DNA from: Candidatus Mediterraneibacter excrementavium
GTDB taxonomy: Bacteria; Bacillota; Clostridia; Lachnospirales; Lachnospiraceae
NCBI GenBank assembly: GCA_019120275.1
Contig: DWVL01000079.1
Span: 1 to 35,591 of the forward strand
DNA: 35,591 nucleotides
Reading direction: 5' to 3'
Shown here one piece after another: positions 13,907 to 25,088 of this stretch. A program made the position numbers and the translations under genes. Every line of letters begins with the position of its first letter. Positions within the stretch are counted from its first letter, which is position 1. Under the pieces are notes generated by a model. The model was not told the origin of the DNA. It ran no database searches and saw only the letters and a list, made by a program, of their open reading frames with translations.

Positions 13907-14971
13907 ATGACCGAATATGTGATCGGCAGCAACGAAGCCGGTCAGCGGCTCGACAAATTTCTCGGGAAATATATGCCGCTGGCTCCGAAAAGCTTTTTTT
14001 ATAAAATGCTGCGAAAAAAGAACATAACACTCAATGGGAAGAGAGCAGCAGGTTCAGAAAAACTTACGGAAGGAGATGCGATCCGTTTTTTCCTTTCGGA
14101 TGAAACGATCTGTAAATTTTCTGCATGCAGCGAGAACATTTCCGGACCGGCAGGATCTGGCGAACCTATTTCTGCGGATGATCCGGATATCCTTTATGAA
14201 GACCAGAATACACTGTTTATAAACAAGCCGGCCGGCGTCCTTTCACAGAAAGCATCTGCAGATGATCTTTCCCTGGTAGAACAGCTGACGTCGTATCTGC
14301 TGAGATCCGGTCAGATCACCGGGAAAGATCTTCGGACATTCCATCCGGCTGTCTGCAACCGGCTGGACCGGAACACAAGCGGGATCGTAGCTGCCGGAAA
14401 GTCACTCGCAGCGCTGCAGGAATTAAGCGCTATATTCCGGGAACGAAGCCTTCACAAGTATTATCTGTGCCTGGTGTCGGGAAGGGTGGATAAAAGCGCG
14501 CGTATAACCGGATACATCGTCAAGGACAGCCGTACAAACCGGGTCAGGTTTTCGCAGACAGATACGCCCGGCTCGTCTAAGATCGAAACAGAGTACCGGC
14601 CGCTGTGTACCGGGGATCATGTTACTTTGCTGGAAGTCCGGCTAATCACGGGGAAAACCCATCAGATCCGCGCGCACCTTGCCTCCCAGGGGCATCCGAT
14701 CATCGGGGATTATAAATACGGGATCCGTAAGATCAATGACCGGTACAGGGATGCATACGGACTTCGTTCACAGCTCCTGCACGCCGCACGGCTTGTCATC
14801 CCCCAAAACTGCACAGGCGTTCTGGCAGGACTGTCCGGGAAATTGATCTGTGCTCCGCTGCCTGATCTGTTCCGGAAAATCTGCGAAGAAGAACATATAC
14901 GAAAGGATTTGCTGATATGGCCACGTGGAGTTCAAGAGGACTCAGAGGATCAACCCTGGAGGAGTTCGTAA
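13907..14971 (+). CDS. RluA-family pseudouridine synthase
   Basis: 354 residues. An N-terminal S4 domain ('GQRLDKFLGKYMPLAPKSF') precedes a pseudouridine synthase domain with catalytic motif 'NRLDRNTSGIV' (Asp154) and the family motif 'TGKTHQIRAHLASQGHPIIGD'. Length and S4 domain fit RluC/RluD-type enzymes that modify 23S rRNA; the exact uridines are unknown. It begins 24 bases after the SDR gene. Its last 18 codons overlap the start of recU in another frame. Confidence 0.9.
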   Translation: MTEYVIGSNEAGQRLDKFLGKYMPLAPKSFFYKMLRKKNITLNGKRAAGSEKLTEGDAIRFFLSDETICKFSACSENISGPAGSGEPISADDPDILYEDQNTLFINKPAGVLSQKASADDLSLVEQLTSYLLRSGQITGKDLRTFHPAVCNRLDRNTSGIVAAGKSLAALQELSAIFRERSLHKYYLCLVSGRVDKSARITGYIVKDSRTNRVRFSQTDTPGSSKIETEYRPLCTGDHVTLLEVRLITGKTHQIRAHLASQGHPIIGDYKYGIRKINDRYRDAYGLRSQLLHAARLVIPQNCTGVLAGLSGKLICAPLPDLFRKICEEEHIRKDLLIWPRGVQEDSEDQPWRSS

Positions 14972-15453
14972 ACCAGACAAATGAGAGGTACACGGAGATG
15001 GGACTTGCCCTGATCCAGAAGATCCCTACACCGATCACCCCGGTAAAGATCGATCAGGAAAGCCGACACATCACCCTTGCATATTTTGACAGGATCAGTA
15101 CGGTAGACTATATCGGTGCAGTACAGGGCATTCCGGTCTGCTTTGACGCAAAAGAATGCCGTCAGGACACATTTCCGCTGCAGAATATCCATGAACACCA
15201 GATGGATTTTATGGGTAAATTTGAGAAGCAGGGCGGGATCGCCTTCCTTTTGATCTATTTCAGTACCAGGGATGAACTTTATTATATGCGCTATGAGCAG
15301 ATCCTGAAATTCTGGGAGCGGGGAAACAGCGGCGGCCGCAGGAGTTTCCGCTATGATGAACTGGAACCCGGATGGTTTATGAAACTGAAGCAGGGGTATT
15401 TTATTCCTTATCTGGACTTTATACAGAAGGATCTGGACTGCAGGGATGAATAA
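14917..15453 (+). CDS. recU: Holliday junction resolvase RecU
   Basis: 178 residues. RecU is the Firmicute resolvase that cuts four-way DNA junctions during recombination and repair. Recognisable elements are 'RGSTLEEFVNQTNERY' (10-25), 'PTPITPVKID', and the nuclease core 'VDYIGAVQGIPVCFDAKE' with Asp64, Asp77 and Lys79. The motif usually written FEAKE in B. subtilis reads FDAKE here. 'FPLQNIHEHQMDFM' and 'GGIAFLLIYF' also match. The start at 14917 is supported by AAAGGA upstream and because the conserved RG motif lies only 10 residues in. This gives a 55-base overlap with the pseudouridine synthase gene. RecU is usually next to a class A PBP gene; that partner is not here. Confidence 0.93.
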   Translation: MATWSSRGLRGSTLEEFVNQTNERYTEMGLALIQKIPTPITPVKIDQESRHITLAYFDRISTVDYIGAVQGIPVCFDAKECRQDTFPLQNIHEHQMDFMGKFEKQGGIAFLLIYFSTRDELYYMRYEQILKFWERGNSGGRRSFRYDELEPGWFMKLKQGYFIPYLDFIQKDLDCRDE

Positions 15454-15549: not shown

Positions 15550-16800
15550 ATGGAACAGAAACTTCATACTCCGGAAGGGGTACGTGATATCTACAGCAGA
15601 GAATGCGAAACCAAACTTGCACTTCAGAAGAAACTGAACACCGTGCTTCATCTGTACGGATATCAGGATATACAGACGCCCACGTTTGAATTTTACGATG
15701 TATTCCGCGAAGAGATCGGTTCCACATCTACACAGGAACTGTACAAGTTCTTCGACCGTGACGGCAATATACTGGCGCTTCGGCCGGATATCACTCCTTC
15801 GGTTGCCAGAGCAGCGGCGACATTGTTTGAAGGCGACGATTTCCCCATAAGGCTCTGCTATGCAGGCAATACCTTTATCAATCATTCCAGTTATCAGGGA
15901 CGCCTCAAAGAGAATACACAGCTCGGAGCCGAACTGATCGGCCTGGACTCGATCGAAGCGGATGCAGAGATGATCGCGATGGTCGTAAACGGCCTGCGCG
16001 CAGTCGGACTGAGTGAATTCCAGGTCAGCATCGGTCATGTTGATTTTATCAGCAGCCTGCTAAAAGCGGCCGATCTTAACGAAGCTGAAAGCCTGGAGAT
16101 CCGGTCCCTTATTACAAACCGGAACTATTTCGGCGTTGATGAACTTCTGGACAGCAGGGCGGTAAAAGGAAGCGTGAGAAAAGCATTCCGCACCCTCCCT
16201 GAACTTGTCGGTGGTCCGGAAGTACTGGAGCAGGCGTTAAGTGCAGTCCCTGATCTCAACGCGCAGATGGGAGTGAAACGGCTGCAGCAGATCTACCGTC
16301 TGCTGAAAATGTACGGGGCTGAGGATCACATTTCATTTGATCTGAGTATGAGCGGAAACTACGGATATTATTCCGGCATTATTTTCCGCGCGTATACATA
16401 CGGAACCGGAGATGCGGTCGTACGGGGAGGCCGTTATGACCATCTGCTGGAAAAATTCGGGAAAAACACGCCGTCGATCGGTTTTGCAGTCATTATCGAT
16501 GAACTGATGAGCGCACTTTCCCGTCAGAAGATCCGCACAGAGGCCGCCCACCGGAATCTGATCGTATATACAGAAGCGACGGAAGAGCAGGCGATTGCCA
16601 TGGCACGTTCTTTCCGTGACAAAGGACGCAACATTGAACTCCTCAAAAGGACAGCGGAAGAGGAGCGGAGCAGATATGAAGAGTACGCCCGAAGAAAAGG
16701 CACGACTGTCCTTCTGTTCCTGACTGATAATGGAAAGATCGAAATGAAGAATCTGCGGACCGGCGAGGAACGTCTCGCAGATCTCAACATGACGGATTAA
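15550..16800 (+). CDS. hisZ: ATP phosphoribosyltransferase regulatory subunit
   Basis: 416 residues related to histidyl-tRNA synthetase. HisZ pairs with short HisG to form the active, histidine-sensitive first enzyme of histidine synthesis. The class II aminoacyl-tRNA-synthetase-like core is visible in 'TPEGVRDIYSRE', 'LRPDITPSVARAAAT', 'ENTQLGAELIG' and 'VVRGGRYDHLLEKFG'. Assignment to HisZ rather than HisS comes from its place directly before a short HisG. A C-terminal alpha/beta segment (about 320-416) looks like an anticodon-binding-domain remnant. Starts 3-4 bases after a GAGGAGA site and heads the operon. Confidence 0.92.
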   Translation: MEQKLHTPEGVRDIYSRECETKLALQKKLNTVLHLYGYQDIQTPTFEFYDVFREEIGSTSTQELYKFFDRDGNILALRPDITPSVARAAATLFEGDDFPIRLCYAGNTFINHSSYQGRLKENTQLGAELIGLDSIEADAEMIAMVVNGLRAVGLSEFQVSIGHVDFISSLLKAADLNEAESLEIRSLITNRNYFGVDELLDSRAVKGSVRKAFRTLPELVGGPEVLEQALSAVPDLNAQMGVKRLQQIYRLLKMYGAEDHISFDLSMSGNYGYYSGIIFRAYTYGTGDAVVRGGRYDHLLEKFGKNTPSIGFAVIIDELMSALSRQKIRTEAAHRNLIVYTEATEEQAIAMARSFRDKGRNIELLKRTAEEERSRYEEYARRKGTTVLLFLTDNGKIEMKNLRTGEERLADLNMTD

Positions 16801-16813
16801 AGGAGTATGACTT

Positions 16814-17467
16814 ATGAGATATCTGACATTTGCCCTGACAAAGGGGCGGCTTGCCAGCAGGACGCTTGATATGCTCGAGCGTCTTGGCATAACCTGTGAA
16901 GAAATGAAAGATAAAAATTCCAGGAAACTGATTTTCACGAACGAGGAGCTGAAGCTGAAGTTTTTCCTGGCAAAGGGTCCGGATGTACCCACTTATGTAG
17001 AATACGGAGCAGCCGATATCGGTGTAGTGGGAAAAGATACGATCATCGAGGAAGGCCGTAAAGTCCATGAAGTCCTCGATCTGGGATTTGGCAGCTGCCG
17101 GATGTGTGTCTGCGGATATGAAAGCGCCGCGGAACTCCTTCAGCATCATGAACTGATCCGTGTGGCTACCAAATATCCGAAGATCGCCAAGGACTATTTC
17201 TATAATAAAAAACACCAGACTGTTGAGATCATTAAAATGAACGGTTCCATTGAACTGGCTCCCATTGTCGGATTGTCGGAAGTGATCGTGGATATCGTGG
17301 AGACCGGGTCCACGCTGAAAGAGAACGGACTGGTCGTTCTTGAGGAGGTCTGTCCGCTCTCGGCGCGCATGATCGTCAACCCGGTCAGCATGCGCATGGA
17401 GAACGACCGGATCAAAAAACTGATCACCGATCTGCGGACACTCATACGCAGCGATCAGGAACAGTAA
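16814..17467 (+). CDS. hisG: ATP phosphoribosyltransferase, short form
   Basis: 217 residues, the short-form HisG that lacks the C-terminal regulatory domain and depends on HisZ. It condenses ATP and phosphoribosyl pyrophosphate to phosphoribosyl-ATP. Visible signatures include 'LTFALTKGRLA' at the start, 'GPDVPTYVEYGAADIGVVGKD' and the PRPP-binding 'EVIVDIVETGSTLKENGL'. Starts 14 bases after hisZ with an AAAGGAG site. Confidence 0.96.
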   Translation: MRYLTFALTKGRLASRTLDMLERLGITCEEMKDKNSRKLIFTNEELKLKFFLAKGPDVPTYVEYGAADIGVVGKDTIIEEGRKVHEVLDLGFGSCRMCVCGYESAAELLQHHELIRVATKYPKIAKDYFYNKKHQTVEIIKMNGSIELAPIVGLSEVIVDIVETGSTLKENGLVVLEEVCPLSARMIVNPVSMRMENDRIKKLITDLRTLIRSDQEQ

Positions 17468-17483: not shown

Positions 17484-18782
17484 ATGCGAATTGAAAAACT
17501 GGATCAGGATACCAGACAGGATCTGCTTGAGAAGCTTCTGAAGCGAAGTCCGAACAGCTACGGGAAGTATGAAGACAATGTGCGGGAGATCCTGGATGCC
17601 GTGAAAGAGCGGCGCGATCAGGCGCTTTTTGAATATACGGAAAAGTTTGACGGCGCGCACATTACATCGGACAATATCCGTGTCACGGAAGAGGAAATAA
17701 AAGAAGCATATGATCAGGTGGATCCGGAACTGGTAGAGATTATACGGAAATCACTTCACAATATACGCACTTATCATGAAAAGCAGCGACAGTACAGCTG
17801 GTTTGACAGCAAGCCGGACGGTACGATCCTTGGGCAGAAAATAACACCGCTTGCCCGTGTCGGCGTATATGTTCCGGGCGGAAAAGCTGCCTATCCATCC
17901 TCTGTGCTAATGAATATCGTACCGGCAAAGGTGGCCGGCGTGGATGAAATCATCATGGCGACTCCGCCAGGAAAAGATGGAAGAGTTACAGCCACTACGT
18001 TGGTCGCTGCCAATGAAGCCGGAGCAGACCGCATTTACAAGGCAGGAGGAGCACAGGCCATTGCAGCGATGGCATACGGCACTGAAAGCATTCCAAAGGT
18101 AGATAAGATCGTCGGACCGGGCAACATTTATGTGGCACTGGCAAAAAAATCCGTATACGGACATGTCAGTATTGATTCTGTTGCCGGGCCAAGCGAGATC
18201 CTTGTCCTGGCAGACGAGACAGCCAATCCGCGCTATGTAGCGGCTGACCTGCTCTCACAGGCGGAACATGACGAACTGGCCAGCGCGATCCTTGTTACAA
18301 CCAGCATGAAGCTGGCACAGGATGTATCCGACTGGACAGACCGCTTTATCGGTGAGCTTTCAAGGGGGGAGATCATTCAGAAATCCCTGGATAATTACGG
18401 CCACATCCTGGTTGCGGATACGCTTGAAGAGGCCATTGACGCAGCAAATGAAATCGCATCCGAACATATGGAGATCGTGACCGCCAATCCCTTTGAGGTT
18501 ATGACAAAGATCCGAAATGCCGGGGCCATTTTTATCGGCGAATATTCCAGCGAGCCGTTGGGAGATTATTTTGCCGGACCAAACCATGTGCTCCCGACCA
18601 ACGGAACGGCAAAATTCTTTTCACCGCTGTCCGTTGACGATTTCATTAAAAAATCCAGCATTATTTCCTATTCCAGGAATGCACTGGAGAAGATCCACAC
18701 AGATATCGAAACATTCGCTGAGGCAGAACATCTGACTGCACATGCGAATTCCATTAAAGTCCGTTTTGACGGCAGGGACTGA
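17484..18782 (+). CDS. hisD: histidinol dehydrogenase
   Basis: 432 residues, standard length. HisD catalyses the last two oxidations, L-histidinol to L-histidine, with NAD and a zinc ion. Family landmarks are 'LARVGVYVPGGKAAYPSSVLMN', 'KAGGAQAIAAMAYGTESIP', 'DSVAGPSEILVLADE', 'LLSQAEHDELASA' with metal-binding Gln/His, and 'FAGPNHVLPT' with a catalytic His. Begins 17 bases after hisG with AGGAGG. Confidence 0.97.
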   Translation: MRIEKLDQDTRQDLLEKLLKRSPNSYGKYEDNVREILDAVKERRDQALFEYTEKFDGAHITSDNIRVTEEEIKEAYDQVDPELVEIIRKSLHNIRTYHEKQRQYSWFDSKPDGTILGQKITPLARVGVYVPGGKAAYPSSVLMNIVPAKVAGVDEIIMATPPGKDGRVTATTLVAANEAGADRIYKAGGAQAIAAMAYGTESIPKVDKIVGPGNIYVALAKKSVYGHVSIDSVAGPSEILVLADETANPRYVAADLLSQAEHDELASAILVTTSMKLAQDVSDWTDRFIGELSRGEIIQKSLDNYGHILVADTLEEAIDAANEIASEHMEIVTANPFEVMTKIRNAGAIFIGEYSSEPLGDYFAGPNHVLPTNGTAKFFSPLSVDDFIKKSSIISYSRNALEKIHTDIETFAEAEHLTAHANSIKVRFDGRD

Positions 18783-19384: not shown

Positions 19385-19437
19385 TATATGATATAAATGT
19401 AATACGGAACTTAAACGAAAAGGAGATCTGACATACC

Positions 19438-20721
19438 ATGAGTTATAAAAGACTGACCCCATGCATCTTTATCGATCACGGGAAGGCCGCAAAATGGTTT
19501 GACGACAGTACAGTGCTTTCAGATGACGTCGTGGCGCTGGCAAAACAATACTGTGACCGCGGCGCTGACGAGCTGATCGTCTTTGACCTTTCCACATCCG
19601 ATGAAGAACATGACGAGGCAATCGACCTGATCAAAAAAATAAACCGGGTGATCAGTATTCCAATGATCGCCGGCGGCAATATACGGCGTGCGGAGGATGT
19701 AAAGAAGATCCTCTATGCCGGCGCCAAACGTGCGATCCTCAACTTTTCCAAACCGCTGTCCATTGATCTGATACAGGAGGTATCCACAAGATTCGGAAAA
19801 GAAAGGATCGCGGTATCACTGAATGATTTTGACACACTCTTCAAACAGCAGCACCTGATCGAAGAGTACAGTACGGAAATTGTATTTATGCACCGGCTTG
19901 ATCTGAATTCAGTCATGAATATTACAGAGCTTCCATGCGTGGTCCTTACAGACACCATGGAGCAGAGCGAGATCCTCCGCATCCTGAAATGTGACAGTAT
20001 TAAAGGGGTGTCCGGTTTATTTATAAGCGATCTCAATATGGACTTTAATGAATTCAAAGATATCTGTATGGATGCCGGGATCCAGATGACTTCCTTTGAA
20101 AGCATCCTCGATTTTTCAGAATTCAAGCTGAATTCCAACGGACTTATCCCGGTTGTCGTACAGGATTATAAGACAAACGAAGTCCTGATGATGGCCTATA
20201 TGAACGAGGAAGCGTTTGACAATACAGTGAAAACCGGGCGCATGACATATTTCAGCAGAAGCCGGCAGTGCCAGTGGGTAAAAGGAGAAACATCCGGTCA
20301 TTATCAGTATGTTAAATCTCTTTCCATTGACTGTGATAAAGATACGATCCTGGCAAAGGTCGAACAGATCGGCGCAGCCTGTCATACCGGCAACCGTTCC
20401 TGTTTCTATACAACGATCGTCGGGGCGGACTACGATGCCAAAAATCCTCTGCAGGTATTTGAGTCTGTCTATAATACGATCCTCGACCGGCGGGAAAATC
20501 CGAAAGAAGGCTCATATACAAATTATCTCTTTGAGAAGGGAATCGATAAGATCCTCAAAAAAGTGGGAGAGGAGGCGACGGAAATCGTCATCGCCGCCAA
20601 GAATCCGAATCCTGAGGAAATCAAATACGAGATCTCCGATTTCCTGTATCATGCCATGGTGCTTATGGTAGAGCGCGGCGTTACCTGGGAAGATATTATC
20701 AATGAACTGGCGGACAGATAA
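19438..20721 (+). CDS. hisIE: three-domain HisIE: HisF-like degenerate barrel + PRA-CH + PRA-PH
   Basis: 427 residues. Residues about 235-330 are phosphoribosyl-AMP cyclohydrolase (HisI), with 'MAYMNEEAF', '[15 protein letters not shown]' and metal ligands Asp298, Cys299, Asp300, Asp302, Cys315 and Cys322. Residues 340-427 are phosphoribosyl-ATP pyrophosphatase (HisE), with 'KVGEEATE' and 'EISDFLYH'. Together they carry out steps two and three of histidine synthesis. Residues 1-220 look like HisF: '[12 protein letters not shown]', '[11 protein letters not shown]', '[12 protein letters not shown]' and '[10 protein letters not shown]' align with it. However, the first catalytic Asp is Phe11, the second aligns with Asn129, and the second-half phosphate loop is missing, so this part is probably not a cyclase. 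Last gene of the operon; AAAAGGAGA supports the start. Confidence 0.93.
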
Positions 20722-20814: not shown

Positions 20815-21111
20815 ATGAATGAACAGGAAATACGCAGAAAGGAACTACTGCGGCAGACAAGAAAACTCTATGATGAAAGGCAGGAGATACCGGCTGTCCA
20901 CCCGCGCTACAGTGGAGCATACAACAGTCTGTACGGAAGAAGAGAAGATGAGCAGACAACCGGAGGAAGCTTCCGTCTCAGAGCTTTGATCGCTGTCCTC
21001 TGTGCTGCCTGCTACATATATATAGATGAGAATCAGATCAATATCGCTGATATCAACAGTATATCGATCACAGAAGAAATCGAAAGAGAGCTGATCAGTC
21101 CGGAATGGTAG
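20815..21111 (+). CDS. small single-pass membrane protein, unknown function
   Basis: 98 residues, not recognised. The first 50 residues are hydrophilic and basic, with many Arg and Glu; a hydrophobic segment (about 57-70, 'LIAVLCAACYIYI') follows, then an acidic C-terminal part of about 28 residues. Positive residues before the membrane segment suggest the N-terminus stays in the cytoplasm. A weak AGGTG precedes the ATG. No promoter is clear between it and the his terminator. Its 3' end overlaps the end of the convergent M20 gene by 17 bases. The coding call rests on frame length and membrane-protein composition only. Confidence 0.6.
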   Translation: MNEQEIRRKELLRQTRKLYDERQEIPAVHPRYSGAYNSLYGRREDEQTTGGSFRLRALIAVLCAACYIYIDENQINIADINSISITEEIERELISPEW

Positions 21112-22537
21112 GAACCGCATCAGCCGGGATCGGGCAGACATATCCTGAAGCAGTGTTCTTTTCAAATTCAGCGCGCGCCTCTTTCAGGATTTCCGGTTCC
21201 ATGAACAGTTCGGAAACAGATGCTGCGATGACCTTGGCTGCGCAGACGGCTGCCTTTCTGCCGATCGAAGAACCTGCGCTGGAAACATTCTGCCAGCTGT
21301 GCCCGGGGCATCCGTTCGGCCATGATGCCACATGGATCTGTGCCGTAGGAGTGAGCCAGCTTACATCTCCTACATCCGTGGAGCCAGCAATGAAGGCAGG
21401 GCCCTGATACAGCGGACAGAGAAAGCTGTTCATTGCATGACCGGCCTGTTTTTGCATCTCGGCGACACGCTCGCGAATAGCCGGGTCATTTTCAGCTCCC
21501 GCACCAGGGATATGGGAATTTCCTTCATAGGTTGTGGAAAGCCGATCGGCATAATCCAGTTCTTCCGCCGTATATTCCGGCACACCGATTTCTTTAAAAT
21601 TCCGGTAAAGCACTTTTTCAAGTGTATGGCAGCTCACCGTATCGGCTGTCCCGTCAATGAATTTACGTTCCAGAACCGTATCTGTCATCATTGCAGCTCC
21701 GTCCGCGATCCGGTCTACCCTGGCCTGGAGCTCCACAGCTTCCGCAACATGATTCGAGCGCACCATGTAAAGCACGCTTGCCTTTGGCTGTACTACATTC
21801 GGACTTACTCCGCCGGCGTCCGTAATGGCGTAGTGTATCCGTGCACGGTCACTCATATGTTCACGAAGGAACTGAACACCGATATTCATTAATTCAACAG
21901 CGTCCAGAGCGCTTCTTCCCATTTCCGGTTCTTCGGCCGCATGCGAAGCAATGCCGGTAAATTTATACTGGGTCTGAATGCATGAATTAGACGAGCCGGT
22001 ACGGACTTCGTTTACATCCTCCGGATGCCATGAAAACGCAGCGTCCAGAGAATTCCAGATGCCGTCTCTTGCCATGAACGCTTTCGCGGCGCCGCCTTCC
22101 TCCCCGGGACATCCATAGAGGATAACCGTACCCGGAAGCCCGGTTTTATCCAGAAATGCTTTTACTCCCAGTGCCGCACCGAAGGAACCGGCGCCGAGAA
22201 GGTTATGTCCGCAGCCATGTCCGCAGCCTCCGGATACGATTTCTTTCTGTTCCAGGGCTCCTGCCTCCTGCGAAAGTCCCGAAAGGGCGTCATACTCTGC
22301 AAGGATTCCGATCCTGGGGCTGCCGTTTCCAAAGCTTGCTGAGAAAGCGGTCCGGATCCCGCATATTCCCTTTTCGACGAGAAATCCTTCCTGTTCAAGG
22401 ATACGGCAGTAGTAGTCTGCAGCCTGATCCTCCTGCAGCGAAAGCTCCGGATGGCTCCAGATCTGATCCGCAGCCTGACAGATCAGATCCTTTTTTGCTT
22501 CAACCGCGTCAACTGCGGTCTGTTTTTCATATGTCAT
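21095..22537 (-). CDS. M20 family amidohydrolase, AbgB-like
   Basis: 480 residues of the M20 metallopeptidase family, closest by eye to AbgB, a subunit of p-aminobenzoyl-glutamate hydrolase. Zinc-site elements are 'GGCGHGCGHNLLGAG' and 'PGEEGGAAKAF', and a dimerisation domain occupies the middle ('GIASHAAEEPEMGRSALDAVELMN'). Related enzymes hydrolyse N-acyl amino acids or small peptides; the substrate here is unknown, and no AbgA partner is nearby. The start at 22537 is chosen because AGGAGG lies 8 bases upstream; an in-frame start at 22558 would precede that site. It follows the ABC transporter on the same strand after a terminator. Confidence 0.87.
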   Translation of the reverse strand: MTYEKQTAVDAVEAKKDLICQAADQIWSHPELSLQEDQAADYYCRILEQEGFLVEKGICGIRTAFSASFGNGSPRIGILAEYDALSGLSQEAGALEQKEIVSGGCGHGCGHNLLGAGSFGAALGVKAFLDKTGLPGTVILYGCPGEEGGAAKAFMARDGIWNSLDAAFSWHPEDVNEVRTGSSNSCIQTQYKFTGIASHAAEEPEMGRSALDAVELMNIGVQFLREHMSDRARIHYAITDAGGVSPNVVQPKASVLYMVRSNHVAEAVELQARVDRIADGAAMMTDTVLERKFIDGTADTVSCHTLEKVLYRNFKEIGVPEYTAEELDYADRLSTTYEGNSHIPGAGAENDPAIRERVAEMQKQAGHAMNSFLCPLYQGPAFIAGSTDVGDVSWLTPTAQIHVASWPNGCPGHSWQNVSSAGSSIGRKAAVCAAKVIAASVSELFMEPEILKEARAEFEKNTASGYVCPIPADAVPTIPD

Positions 22538-22571
22538 TTCCTGATCCTCCTGTATCATTCTGTATCATCTT

Positions 22572-22610
22572 TTACAAAAGAAGATCCCGAAAGAATGCTC
22601 TTTCGGGATC
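22572..22610 (-). terminator. terminator of the amino-acid ABC operon
   Basis: A perfect 12-bp stem (22599-22610 with 22583-22594, 4-base loop) lies right after the ATPase stop. On the minus strand it is followed by TTCTTTTGT. Confidence 0.85.
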
Positions 22611-22615
22611 CGGGG

Positions 22616-23374
22616 TTATAACACTTTTGAAAGGAAATCCTGAAGTCTGGGATGCTGGGGATGATCGAAGAGTTCCTTCGGGTCCCCCTGTTCCAGCAGC
22701 CTGCCGTCTGCCATGAAAAGCAAACGGTTGCCGACTTCTCTTGCAAATCCCATTTCATGAGTCACAACAACCATCGTCATTCCCTCTTCGGCAAGCTCAC
22801 GCATAACATCAAGCACTTCACCGACCATTTCCGGATCGAGAGCGGAAGTCGGCTCGTCAAAGAGCATCACTTCCGGTTCCATTGCCAGAGCTCTAACGAT
22901 CGCGACACGCTGTTTCTGTCCGCCGGAAAGCTGGATCGGGTAGGAGTCGGCCCTGTCTTCCAGACCGACACGCTTCAGAAGCTCCATGGCTTTTCTTTCG
23001 GCTTCCTCTTTGGAGATCCCCTTGACTTTCATGGGAGCAAGCGTCATATTTTCGAGGATGGTCTTGTGCGGAAAAAGATTAAAGTGCTGGAAAACCATTC
23101 CCATTTTCTGACGAAGCTCATCGATGTTCAGTTTGACCGTTTTTCCGTCCGCATCCTTATATTTTTTCCGGGTAATATCTGTCCCCTGAAAAACAATGGA
23201 TCCTCCTGTAGGTTCTTCCAGAAGATTCAGGCTGCGGAGAAATGTTGATTTTCCGGAACCTGACGGTCCTATTACAGCGATCACGTCCCCTTTGTTGATA
23301 TCCACGGTAACTCCGTCAAGAGCTTTGATCGCGCCGCCCTTATAGTACTTTTTCAGATCAGTGACCCTGATCAT
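22616..23374 (-). CDS. polar amino acid ABC transporter, ATP-binding protein
   Basis: 252 residues, GlnQ/ArtP-type. Walker A is 'GPSGSGKST', the Q-loop is in '[14 protein letters not shown]', the signature is '[11 protein letters not shown]', Walker B is '[13 protein letters not shown]' and the switch His is in 'VVTHEM'. It powers uptake through the permease encoded just upstream. Start chosen at ATG 23374, one base past the permease stop and 6 bases after AGGAG; a GTG at 23392 would add six residues and overlap. Substrate specificity among polar amino acids cannot be read from the sequence. Confidence 0.96.
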
Positions 23375-23375
23375 T

Positions 23376-24152
23376 CTATCTCCTGTCTCCACGGCTCATC
23401 CTCCTTTCTATATAGGCGATAATCTTGGAGGTGGGGAAGCAGAGACAGAAATAAATTGCTGTCGCCACCAGCAGCGGTTCAACAATGACATAGGCTGAAC
23501 CTTTTACTACATTGACTGCTGACATGATATCCTGAACACCGATCGTATAGGTTACCGCTGACTCCTTTATGATCACGACAAATTCGTTTGCGATCGCAGG
23601 AAGAATATTTTTGATCGCCTGGGGAAGGATAATGTATCGCATATTCTGCCCCTGTGAGAGTCCGAGAGACCGGGCAGCCTCCGTCTGGCCGGAATCAATG
23701 GACTGGATGCCGGAGCGGATGATCTCACACAGATAAGCGCCGGAATTCATCCCGAGGGCAACTACACCCGGGAAGAACCTTTCAAACCGGATAAATCCAA
23801 ACAGCTGAAAGCTGGGCAGGTCTATGATGCCGAACACACCGTAATAAATGATGAAAATCTGCACCAGCACAGGAGTGGACCGAATAATCTCAACATATGC
23901 GGTCGCAATGAAGGCCAGCGGATTAAAACGGCTGAGCACGGCAAGCGTTCCCTGTTCTCTCTGATGTCCGTCCGCATCGATCCCGAGGAATCGGAGCGGA
24001 CGGAGATTTGACATACGCATCAGCGCAAGGATAAGCGCAAGACAGAAGCCGATCACAACGGTAAACAGTGCCAGAAAGATCGTTACAAGAGTACCCTGCC
24101 AGAACATTTCGGCATACGGTGTGATCAGTGAAAAATTTTTAAGCTGTATCAT
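23376..24152 (-). CDS. polar amino acid ABC transporter, permease protein
   Basis: 258 residues of the HisM/GlnP permease family with about five membrane segments. The cytoplasmic coupling loop (EAA motif) is '[22 protein letters not shown]'. The protein is longer than the common 215-230 residues because of a hydrophilic insertion at about 57-77 between the first membrane segments. A single permease gene implies a homodimeric channel. AAGGAG precedes the ATG; the stop is 1 base from the ATPase start. Confidence 0.95.
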
Positions 24153-24182
24153 GGGAATCTCCTTTCAGGGATCAGCAGGATA

Positions 24183-25088
24183 TTACTGTATATTTCCCGC
24201 GTCGTCAAGAAGTCCTTCATAGGTCTGGCCTGCAGCAAGTTCGTTAGCTTCTGCAACAAACTGATCCATGCTGCCGTCCTCGACAGCCGCCGCGATCGCT
24301 TCATTAACCGCATCAAGCAGAGGCTGATTATCTTTTACAACACCGATAGCGGAACCGGTCACATCCGTCTCCACATCCAGGACGATCTGAAGATCCGGGT
24401 AGTTTTTCTGATAGCTTTCTGCGATCGCTGTCTCCATAAAAGCAGCGTCCAGTGTACCTGCAACAAGTTCAGAAACGATATCCGTCACCTTGGGAAGAGA
24501 AATGATATCCGCATCCGGTGTATTCTCATTTGCGAGATCAAACTGAAGTGAAGCGATCTGTGCTCCGACCTGCACGTCCGGATCATTCAGTGCATCAAAG
24601 GATGTAAATTTGTCTGCATTTTCTTTGGTTGTTACGACAGACTGTTCTCCGTCATAGTAAATATCTGAGAAATCCATAATGTTTTCACGTTTCTCATCCG
24701 GTGCGAGTCCGGCCATTCCGAGATCAACGGATTTTGTCTGAAGTTCGCTGAGCACACCGTCAAAGTCAACTGTAATGATCTCCAGTTCCAGTCCCATATA
24801 ATCTGCAATATACTGTGCAAGAGCAAGGTCAAATCCTGCCAGTGTCGGATTTCCTTCCTCATCGATCGCATAGAACTCATACGGTGCGTAATCCGGACTT
24901 GTGGCAACTGTCAGCTTGCCTTCTGCCACAGTCTCGATCGCTGCCGCATCTCCTGCATCGTCTGCGGATGCGTCATCCGTTGTCTCTGCAGAGCTGTCAG
25001 ATGCTGTATCATCGCTTCCGCCTCCGCATGCCGCAAGTGACATTACCATGCATCCTGCAAGTAATGCTGCCAATACTTTCTTTTTCAT
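24183..25088 (-). CDS. polar amino acid ABC transporter, substrate-binding lipoprotein
   Basis: 301 residues. A signal peptide with lipobox 'LAAC' (Cys21) is followed by a Gly/Ser/Asp/Ala-rich acidic linker to about residue 50, then a type 3 solute-binding domain beginning 'GKLTVATSPDYAPYEF'. Further family marks are 'AGFDLALAQYIA' and 'DLGMAGLAPDEKRENIMDFSD'. It delivers an amino acid to the permease outside the membrane. AAGGAGG lies 10 bases before the ATG. First gene of the three-gene transporter operon. Confidence 0.95.
   Translation of the reverse strand: MKKKVLAALLAGCMVMSLAACGGGSDDTASDSSAETTDDASADDAGDAAAIETVAEGKLTVATSPDYAPYEFYAIDEEGNPTLAGFDLALAQYIADYMGLELEIITVDFDGVLSELQTKSVDLGMAGLAPDEKRENIMDFSDIYYDGEQSVVTTKENADKFTSFDALNDPDVQVGAQIASLQFDLANENTPDADIISLPKVTDIVSELVAGTLDAAFMETAIAESYQKNYPDLQIVLDVETDVTGSAIGVVKDNQPLLDAVNEAIAAAVEDGSMDQFVAEANELAAGQTYEGLLDDAGNIQ

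Follow-up and report, generated by a model that had tools for sequence, protein, structure and literature searches.

The window, by which we mean the whole stretch of 35,591 nucleotides analysed here, holds a histidine operon whose last gene encodes a HisIE protein with a long N-terminal extension, and this raises the question of where such an extension (called X in the following) comes from and what it still does. The operon and the layout of the fused gene, X::HisIE, are as follows:

15550..16800, + strand: hisZ, open reading frame named by sequence
16814..17467, + strand: hisG (short form), open reading frame named by sequence
17484..18782, + strand: hisD, PF00815 with 605.3 bits
18794..19384, + strand: hisB (dehydratase), open reading frame named by sequence
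19420..19425, + strand: AAGGAG, resembling a ribosome-binding site, upstream of the ATG at 19438
19438..20721, + strand: X::HisIE gene, a single open reading frame of 427 amino acids, closing the operon hisZ-hisG-hisD-hisB-X::hisIE
19438..20097, + strand: X, residues 1-220, predicted dead HisF-derived domain (HisF profile alignment and PF00977)
20119..20427, + strand: HisI (PRA-CH) domain, residues 228-330 (Pfam and NCBIfam matches)
20449..20718, + strand: HisE (PRA-PH) domain, residues 338-427 (Pfam and NCBIfam matches)

With the whole protein as query Pfam placed PRA-CH at 251-324, PRA-PH at 343-427 and the His_biosynth match at 5-131, and NF002747 recognized residues 228-427 as HisIE (267.5 bits, cut-off 187). 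The initial annotation had stated that the HisI and HisE ligands are kept, and at the positions which we take to be ligands the protein indeed carries the family consensus. The end of X lies near residue 220-226, so that the domain end proposed there, 20148 (residue 237), runs into HisI; a search with the stretch delimited in this way gave PF00977 (His_biosynth) at residues 5-132 (83.4 bits, E 2.1e-23). An orthologue of the window's hisZ matches PF13393 and, weakly, PF21996 (HisZ-like). Database names met for X::HisIE proteins are plain HisIE, and the nearest named relatives among those fetched come from Mediterraneibacter genomes (95% for Candidatus M. guildfordensis). An Rfam scan of the window gave no family at the gathering threshold. 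Beside the operon, at 21095-25088 on the minus strand, lie ABC transporter genes that by sequence look like amino-acid uptake, together with a peptidase-like gene; upstream of hisZ, at 13907-15453, pseudouridine synthase and RecU reading frames overlap by 55 bases, a similar neighbourhood being seen in two genomes discussed below (G226 and G414).

Profile searches, alignments and a tree all relate X to HisF. On the stretch delimited in the initial annotation TIGR00735 (HisF) scored 79.1 bits and TIGR00007 (HisA) 58.7 bits, below their cut-offs of 294.55 (curated) and 228.95, and TIGR02129 (eukaryote-type HisA) had no match at X, its two matches in the same genome being on other contigs. Similarity to solved HisF structures stops at residues 127-130 in most of the matches, a single one reaching 168, and the pairwise alignment opens a gap already near residue 27. 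Aligning profiles of 121 fused N-termini and 44 HisF with hhalign placed X 2-220 on HisF 1-253 with a probability of 99.9% and a score of 211, against 148 for the HisA profile. In this alignment about 21 and 11 residues of HisF are deleted from X at two places; the gap-free line-up of residues 1-220 claimed at first therefore has to be given up. The second half of X scored 38.4 against the second half of HisF, 30 column shuffles reaching at most 17.4, and on this profile evidence it is HisF by descent as well, despite the fading similarity of single sequences. In a tree of 22 X, 44 HisF, 41 HisA and 5 eukaryote-type HisA sequences, built from 138 columns only and with three long X branches, X forms one group (SH-aLRT 88) that joins HisF (90). 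Position 103 of HisF is Asn in 15/22 X and 42/44 HisF of this set and Gly in all 41 HisA. Judged by profiles and tree, X descends from HisF over its full length.

To see what was lost and what was kept, we used 148 aligned fused sequences, 143 of them distinct and 86 non-redundant after thinning at 80% identity. The positions of interest in the window protein are:

19468..19470, + strand: Phe11 at the position of HisF Asp11 (sequence alignment)
19600..19611, + strand: D55 to H58, X-specific conserved residues (D55 73/86, H58 72/86)
19678..19722, + strand: N81-G95, beta3-alpha3 loop and helix alpha3, the best-conserved stretch of X
19822..19827, + strand: Asn129-Asp130 at the position of HisF Asp130-Ala131 (alignment), neither residue conserved in the family

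Asp11 and Asp130 are the catalytic residues of HisF. The alignment reproduced their replacement by Phe11 and Asn129 as annotated, and a check across the fused homologues, which had been suggested along with it, gave a clear answer for the first position, where Asp is absent from 148/148 sequences, and a mixed one for the second, which is unconserved though Asp stands at 129 in 13/86 and at 130 in 31/86. The second-half phosphate loops of HisF, among them the Gly-rich one already reported missing, are gone from X in the profile alignment. GGN (79-81) and AGAKRAILN (94-102) are both present as described; Cys9, which had been cited as a match to HisF, occurs in only 38/86 and is no family feature. 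The barrel of X is accordingly predicted from its sequence to be catalytically dead.

Within N81-G95 the 86 sequences share D87, K89 and G95 without exception, followed by Y93 (85), E86 (84), K90 (83), R84 (81) and N81 (59). F119 and G120 are likewise found in 86/86, D44 in 80/86 and K207 in 79/86. D44, D87, G95, F119 and G120 are usual HisF residues; R84, Y93, D55 and H58 are not HisF-like. Of the first-half elements of HisF, X retains Asp50 (HisF Asp51) in 74/86, Gly80 in 76/86 and Asn102 (HisF Asn103) in 54/86, and the position of HisF Gly82 is Asn in 59/86. With strands placed according to the HisF structure as we presume it to be, the catalytic face is no better conserved than the opposite face, both in the window's clade (26 non-redundant sequences; 0.777 vs 0.789, permutation p 0.62) and in the set of 86 (0.41 vs 0.50), a result that speaks against retention of a ProFAR pocket. 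Conservation of a pocket at the mouth of the barrel thus found no support. In the window's clade conservation is good in stretches at the strand ends, for example SLNDFD, and includes polar residues, e.g. D130, D155, T171 and D172. The second half of X is eroding in several lineages: in six of the 86 members X measures only 129-181 residues from the chosen Met onwards, and most of its second half is missing. The EDVKK helix, which reads EDIKK in two of the six, is retained in them, as is the FG motif. The dN/dS was 0.040 and 0.048 in the two halves of X, 0.023 in HisI and 0.016 in HisE, based on eight pairs with usable dS, which are few for a selection test, other pairs being saturated. Where it can be measured, in close pairs, X is under strong purifying selection, and a dead domain that is conserved probably does a non-catalytic job.

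The fusion is widespread in the window's family, a large group of gut bacteria. Among the matches listed for 295 genomes of the window's order, a hand count found X::HisIE in at least 44 of the 48 genomes from the window's family and in none of the remaining 247. In a second sample of 120 family genomes, in which the distribution of fusion and HisA was likewise counted by hand from match listings, 87 have the fusion, including a copy with two stops inside the match (G332:C1:488029-489018) and two incomplete ones (G316 and G142). The others comprise five genomes with HisI(E) lacking X beside a true HisF, 13 with stand-alone HisI (the three loci read are all hisZ-G-D-B-hisI without X), three with HisA::HisI, five with only remnants or HisF-like matches and seven without any match. 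HisF exceeds the cut-off in 105/120; the window's own genome has an intact HisF (390 bits) adjoining HisH (245 bits) on another contig. In the five non-fused members that we fetched the order is hisB, hisH, hisA, hisF, hisI(E) in every case, and by coordinates hisA lies directly upstream of X::hisIE in 23/23 fused genomes with a bacterial HisA, 16 of these sites having been read as loci. X thus sits where hisF used to be in the order hisA-hisF-hisIE. A link between HisZ and X cannot be drawn from their co-occurrence, which is uninformative since HisZ is also present in the non-fused G299, G320, G283 and G395.

These results would fit a history in which an ancestor had hisH-hisA-hisF-hisIE and hisF became joined in frame to hisIE, the cyclase step being taken by another HisF encoded elsewhere, in the window's genome beside HisH. 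From the fused copy the catalytic Asp residues and the phosphate loops of the second half would then have disappeared, and X would have been retained as an interaction or architectural module of HisIE, possibly acting through its conserved alpha2-alpha3 side. That X is the operon's own former HisF, fused to hisIE and kept as a non-catalytic domain, is the reading we favour with somewhat better than even confidence. The HisF-like pseudo-domain of the initial annotation stands in any case, on the alignment, the profile comparison, the tree, the gene order and the intact HisF elsewhere.

The HisA side of the pathway varies among the 87 fused genomes, with eukaryote-type HisA over the cut-off in 64, bacterial HisA in 23, both in five and neither in five; in all, 79/120 family genomes have the eukaryote type, which in the window's genome is on a third contig (L002:1393-2259, TIGR02129, 313 bits). 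It is not the reason for X, as 18/87 fused genomes have bacterial HisA alone. In those, the catalytic Asp8 is kept in 12/12 sequences fetched from the 18 genomes. The five genomes with both types (L196-L200; G317, G343, G362, G319, G355) all show His or Asn instead of Asp8 in the resident HisA, which by this substitution is predicted to be a second dead barrel in the operon and a parallel to X. As the five group together in a first-half tree (SH-aLRT 87), the loss of Asp8 may have been a single event. G331, G369 and G340, assemblies of 95-96% completeness, have X::HisIE, HisF and HisH, and neither HisA type was found in them. The HisA::HisI fusions (L137, L138, L139 in G302, G311, G342) measure 355-382 amino acids and keep both catalytic Asp of HisA; HisE (PF01503) had no match in these three genomes or in the four stand-alone-HisI genomes searched. 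In another family of the order, G122 carries HisA and HisF in one open frame of 478 amino acids (L051).

In three Lachnospiraceae genomes, G226 (99% complete), G399 (92%) and G414, X::HisIE remains an open reading frame at a site that no longer contains hisG, hisD and hisB. In G226 it follows the recU gene, hisZGDB having disappeared from between, and in G399 and G414 it directly follows hisZ. Pathway genes were searched in G226 and G399, where HisD, HisF and HisA had no match and HisH none over the cut-off; G414 is known at the his site only. Ligand residues of HisI are altered in each of the three genomes, those of HisE in G399. The X tree places them on separate branches, which gives three changes, at least two of them forced by firmly supported branches. 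Rates were compared as unique changes in target and sister, the choice of outgroup giving ranges. For G226 against its sister L212, with nine near outgroups, we counted 18-32 vs 14-18 changes in X, 30-35 vs 5-8 in HisI and 10-18 vs 1-8 in HisE; X differed from HisI per site with all nine outgroups (p 1e-7 to 9e-5) and in the ratio test with six (p <0.05). Against L213 X is faster in G226 as well (28-40 vs 14-24; HisI 30-37 vs 1-6). Between the intact L212 and L213 the pN of X was 0.173 and that of HisI 0.118; the corresponding values were 0.156 and 0.362 for G226-L212, and 0.214 and 0.346 for G226-L213. X therefore clearly outlasts HisI in G226.

In G414 X perhaps does so. Compared with L213 it has 17-23 vs 12-25 changes in X and 16-21 vs 2-6 in HisI (ratio p <0.05 in 3/6), and compared with the nearer sister L070 17-30 vs 11-19 and 17-30 vs 3-10 (ratio test <0.05 in 1/6, per-site test in 5/6). 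In G399 X does not outlast HisI: against the window the counts are 19-25 vs 7-12 for X, 17-25 vs 5-9 for HisI and 25-33 vs 3-9 for HisE (ratio p 0.37-1), against L066 25-37 vs 4-15 for X and 19-21 vs 5-7 for HisI, leaving X no less relaxed than HisI, and against L063 both are alike. Distant outgroups gave mixed ratio tests too. The proposal that X has relaxed less than HisI and HisE in each of the three genomes was dropped, as it fails in G399 with another sister and is weak in G414 with the nearer one. A cellular function of the pseudoenzyme domain outside histidine biosynthesis would explain G226 and would make X::HisIE a scaffolding or regulatory protein based on a dead HisF; we regard it as doubtful, and slow decay after a recent loss of the pathway may account for G226. 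Keeping the gene is not the rule, as shown by the seven family genomes without any match.

What X does for HisIE can be weighed against this background. X could be a mere passenger, a fused relic that HisIE needs for folding or solubility and that has no activity of its own; the erosion of its second half, its loss in the stand-alone-HisI members and its partial relaxation after pathway loss, in G399 no less than that of HisI, would suit such a relic. The near-invariant residues, some of them not HisF-like, the low dN/dS in both halves and G226, where the HisI ligands are gone and X yet changed far less per site than HisI, make this a rather improbable account. Tuning of HisIE by an allosteric or channelling X, with ProFAR, PRFAR or some other phosphorylated metabolite bound in the former HisF site, would draw on the surviving Asp50, Gly80 and Asn102 and on the conserved strand ends of the window's clade, but it has to accommodate a catalytic face that is not favoured, the change of Gly82 to Asn in most members, the missing phosphate loops and the shortest barrels. 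We consider it unlikely, and the binding of ProFAR or an analogue, proposed initially, is unsupported for the same reasons. An oligomerising or architectural part for X, the former also proposed initially, is conceivable.

The clade-conserved D130, D155, T171 and D172 might also point to catalysis of a new kind gained on the HisF scaffold, but with Asp130 in a minority of the family and the second half cut back in some members this is very improbable. Scarcely credible is an origin of X from HisA, which is a paralogue of HisF and is fused to HisI in three family members: HisF profiles score higher in both comparisons, the tree and Asn103 favour HisF, and 23 genomes have a bacterial hisA beside X. 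Most likely X serves HisIE in a non-catalytic way, through interactions or as part of its architecture, to judge from conservation that is strongest around helix alpha3 and not at the mouth; the 13 genomes with stand-alone HisI and the three with HisA::HisI count against it by showing that X can be lost, and so does the erosion of its second half.

The family offers a natural experiment in which a textbook enzyme would have been turned into a domain without catalysis on its neighbour in the pathway. Apparent stages can still be seen: hisF intact beside hisIE, dead barrels of full length, and barrels shortened to 129-181 residues. HisF serves as a model of how half-barrels evolve, a field in which the shortened members may prove useful. 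A literature search of titles and abstract openings gave no description of the X domain. With HisF (TIGR00735) X shares homology over the whole length, Asn at position 103 in most members and the first-half GG loop, and it differs in lacking Asp11, a conserved Asp130, the phosphate loops of the second half and two segments of about 21 and 11 residues. With bifunctional HisIE (NF002747, a profile 208 long) it shares residues 228-427, X being extra. HisA/F-HisIE fusions are reported from DPANN and unclassified Archaea, in four metagenomic assemblies (PMC11237513); they likewise join HisA/F to HisIE but are sporadic, and the passages describing them, on which our comparison is based, mention no dead barrel. 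The five his fusions given in PMC1963479 do not include a HisF-HisIE type. According to the same paper, fungal HIS4 has an extra N-terminal region of unknown function before HisI-HisE, as X here, but at the sequence level the two are not homologous (hhalign 2.7%, no PF00977 match in yeast HIS4), though the fold could differ from this picture. HisZ, the regulatory subunit of ATP phosphoribosyltransferase, is, as outlined in PMC7478625, a non-catalytic enzyme paralogue kept in the same operon like X, and unlike X it forms a protein of its own, whose partner, HisG, is known. The plant HisIE homologue HISN2 is described in PMC8102479 as a tight dimer, and by analogy X may be displayed twice.
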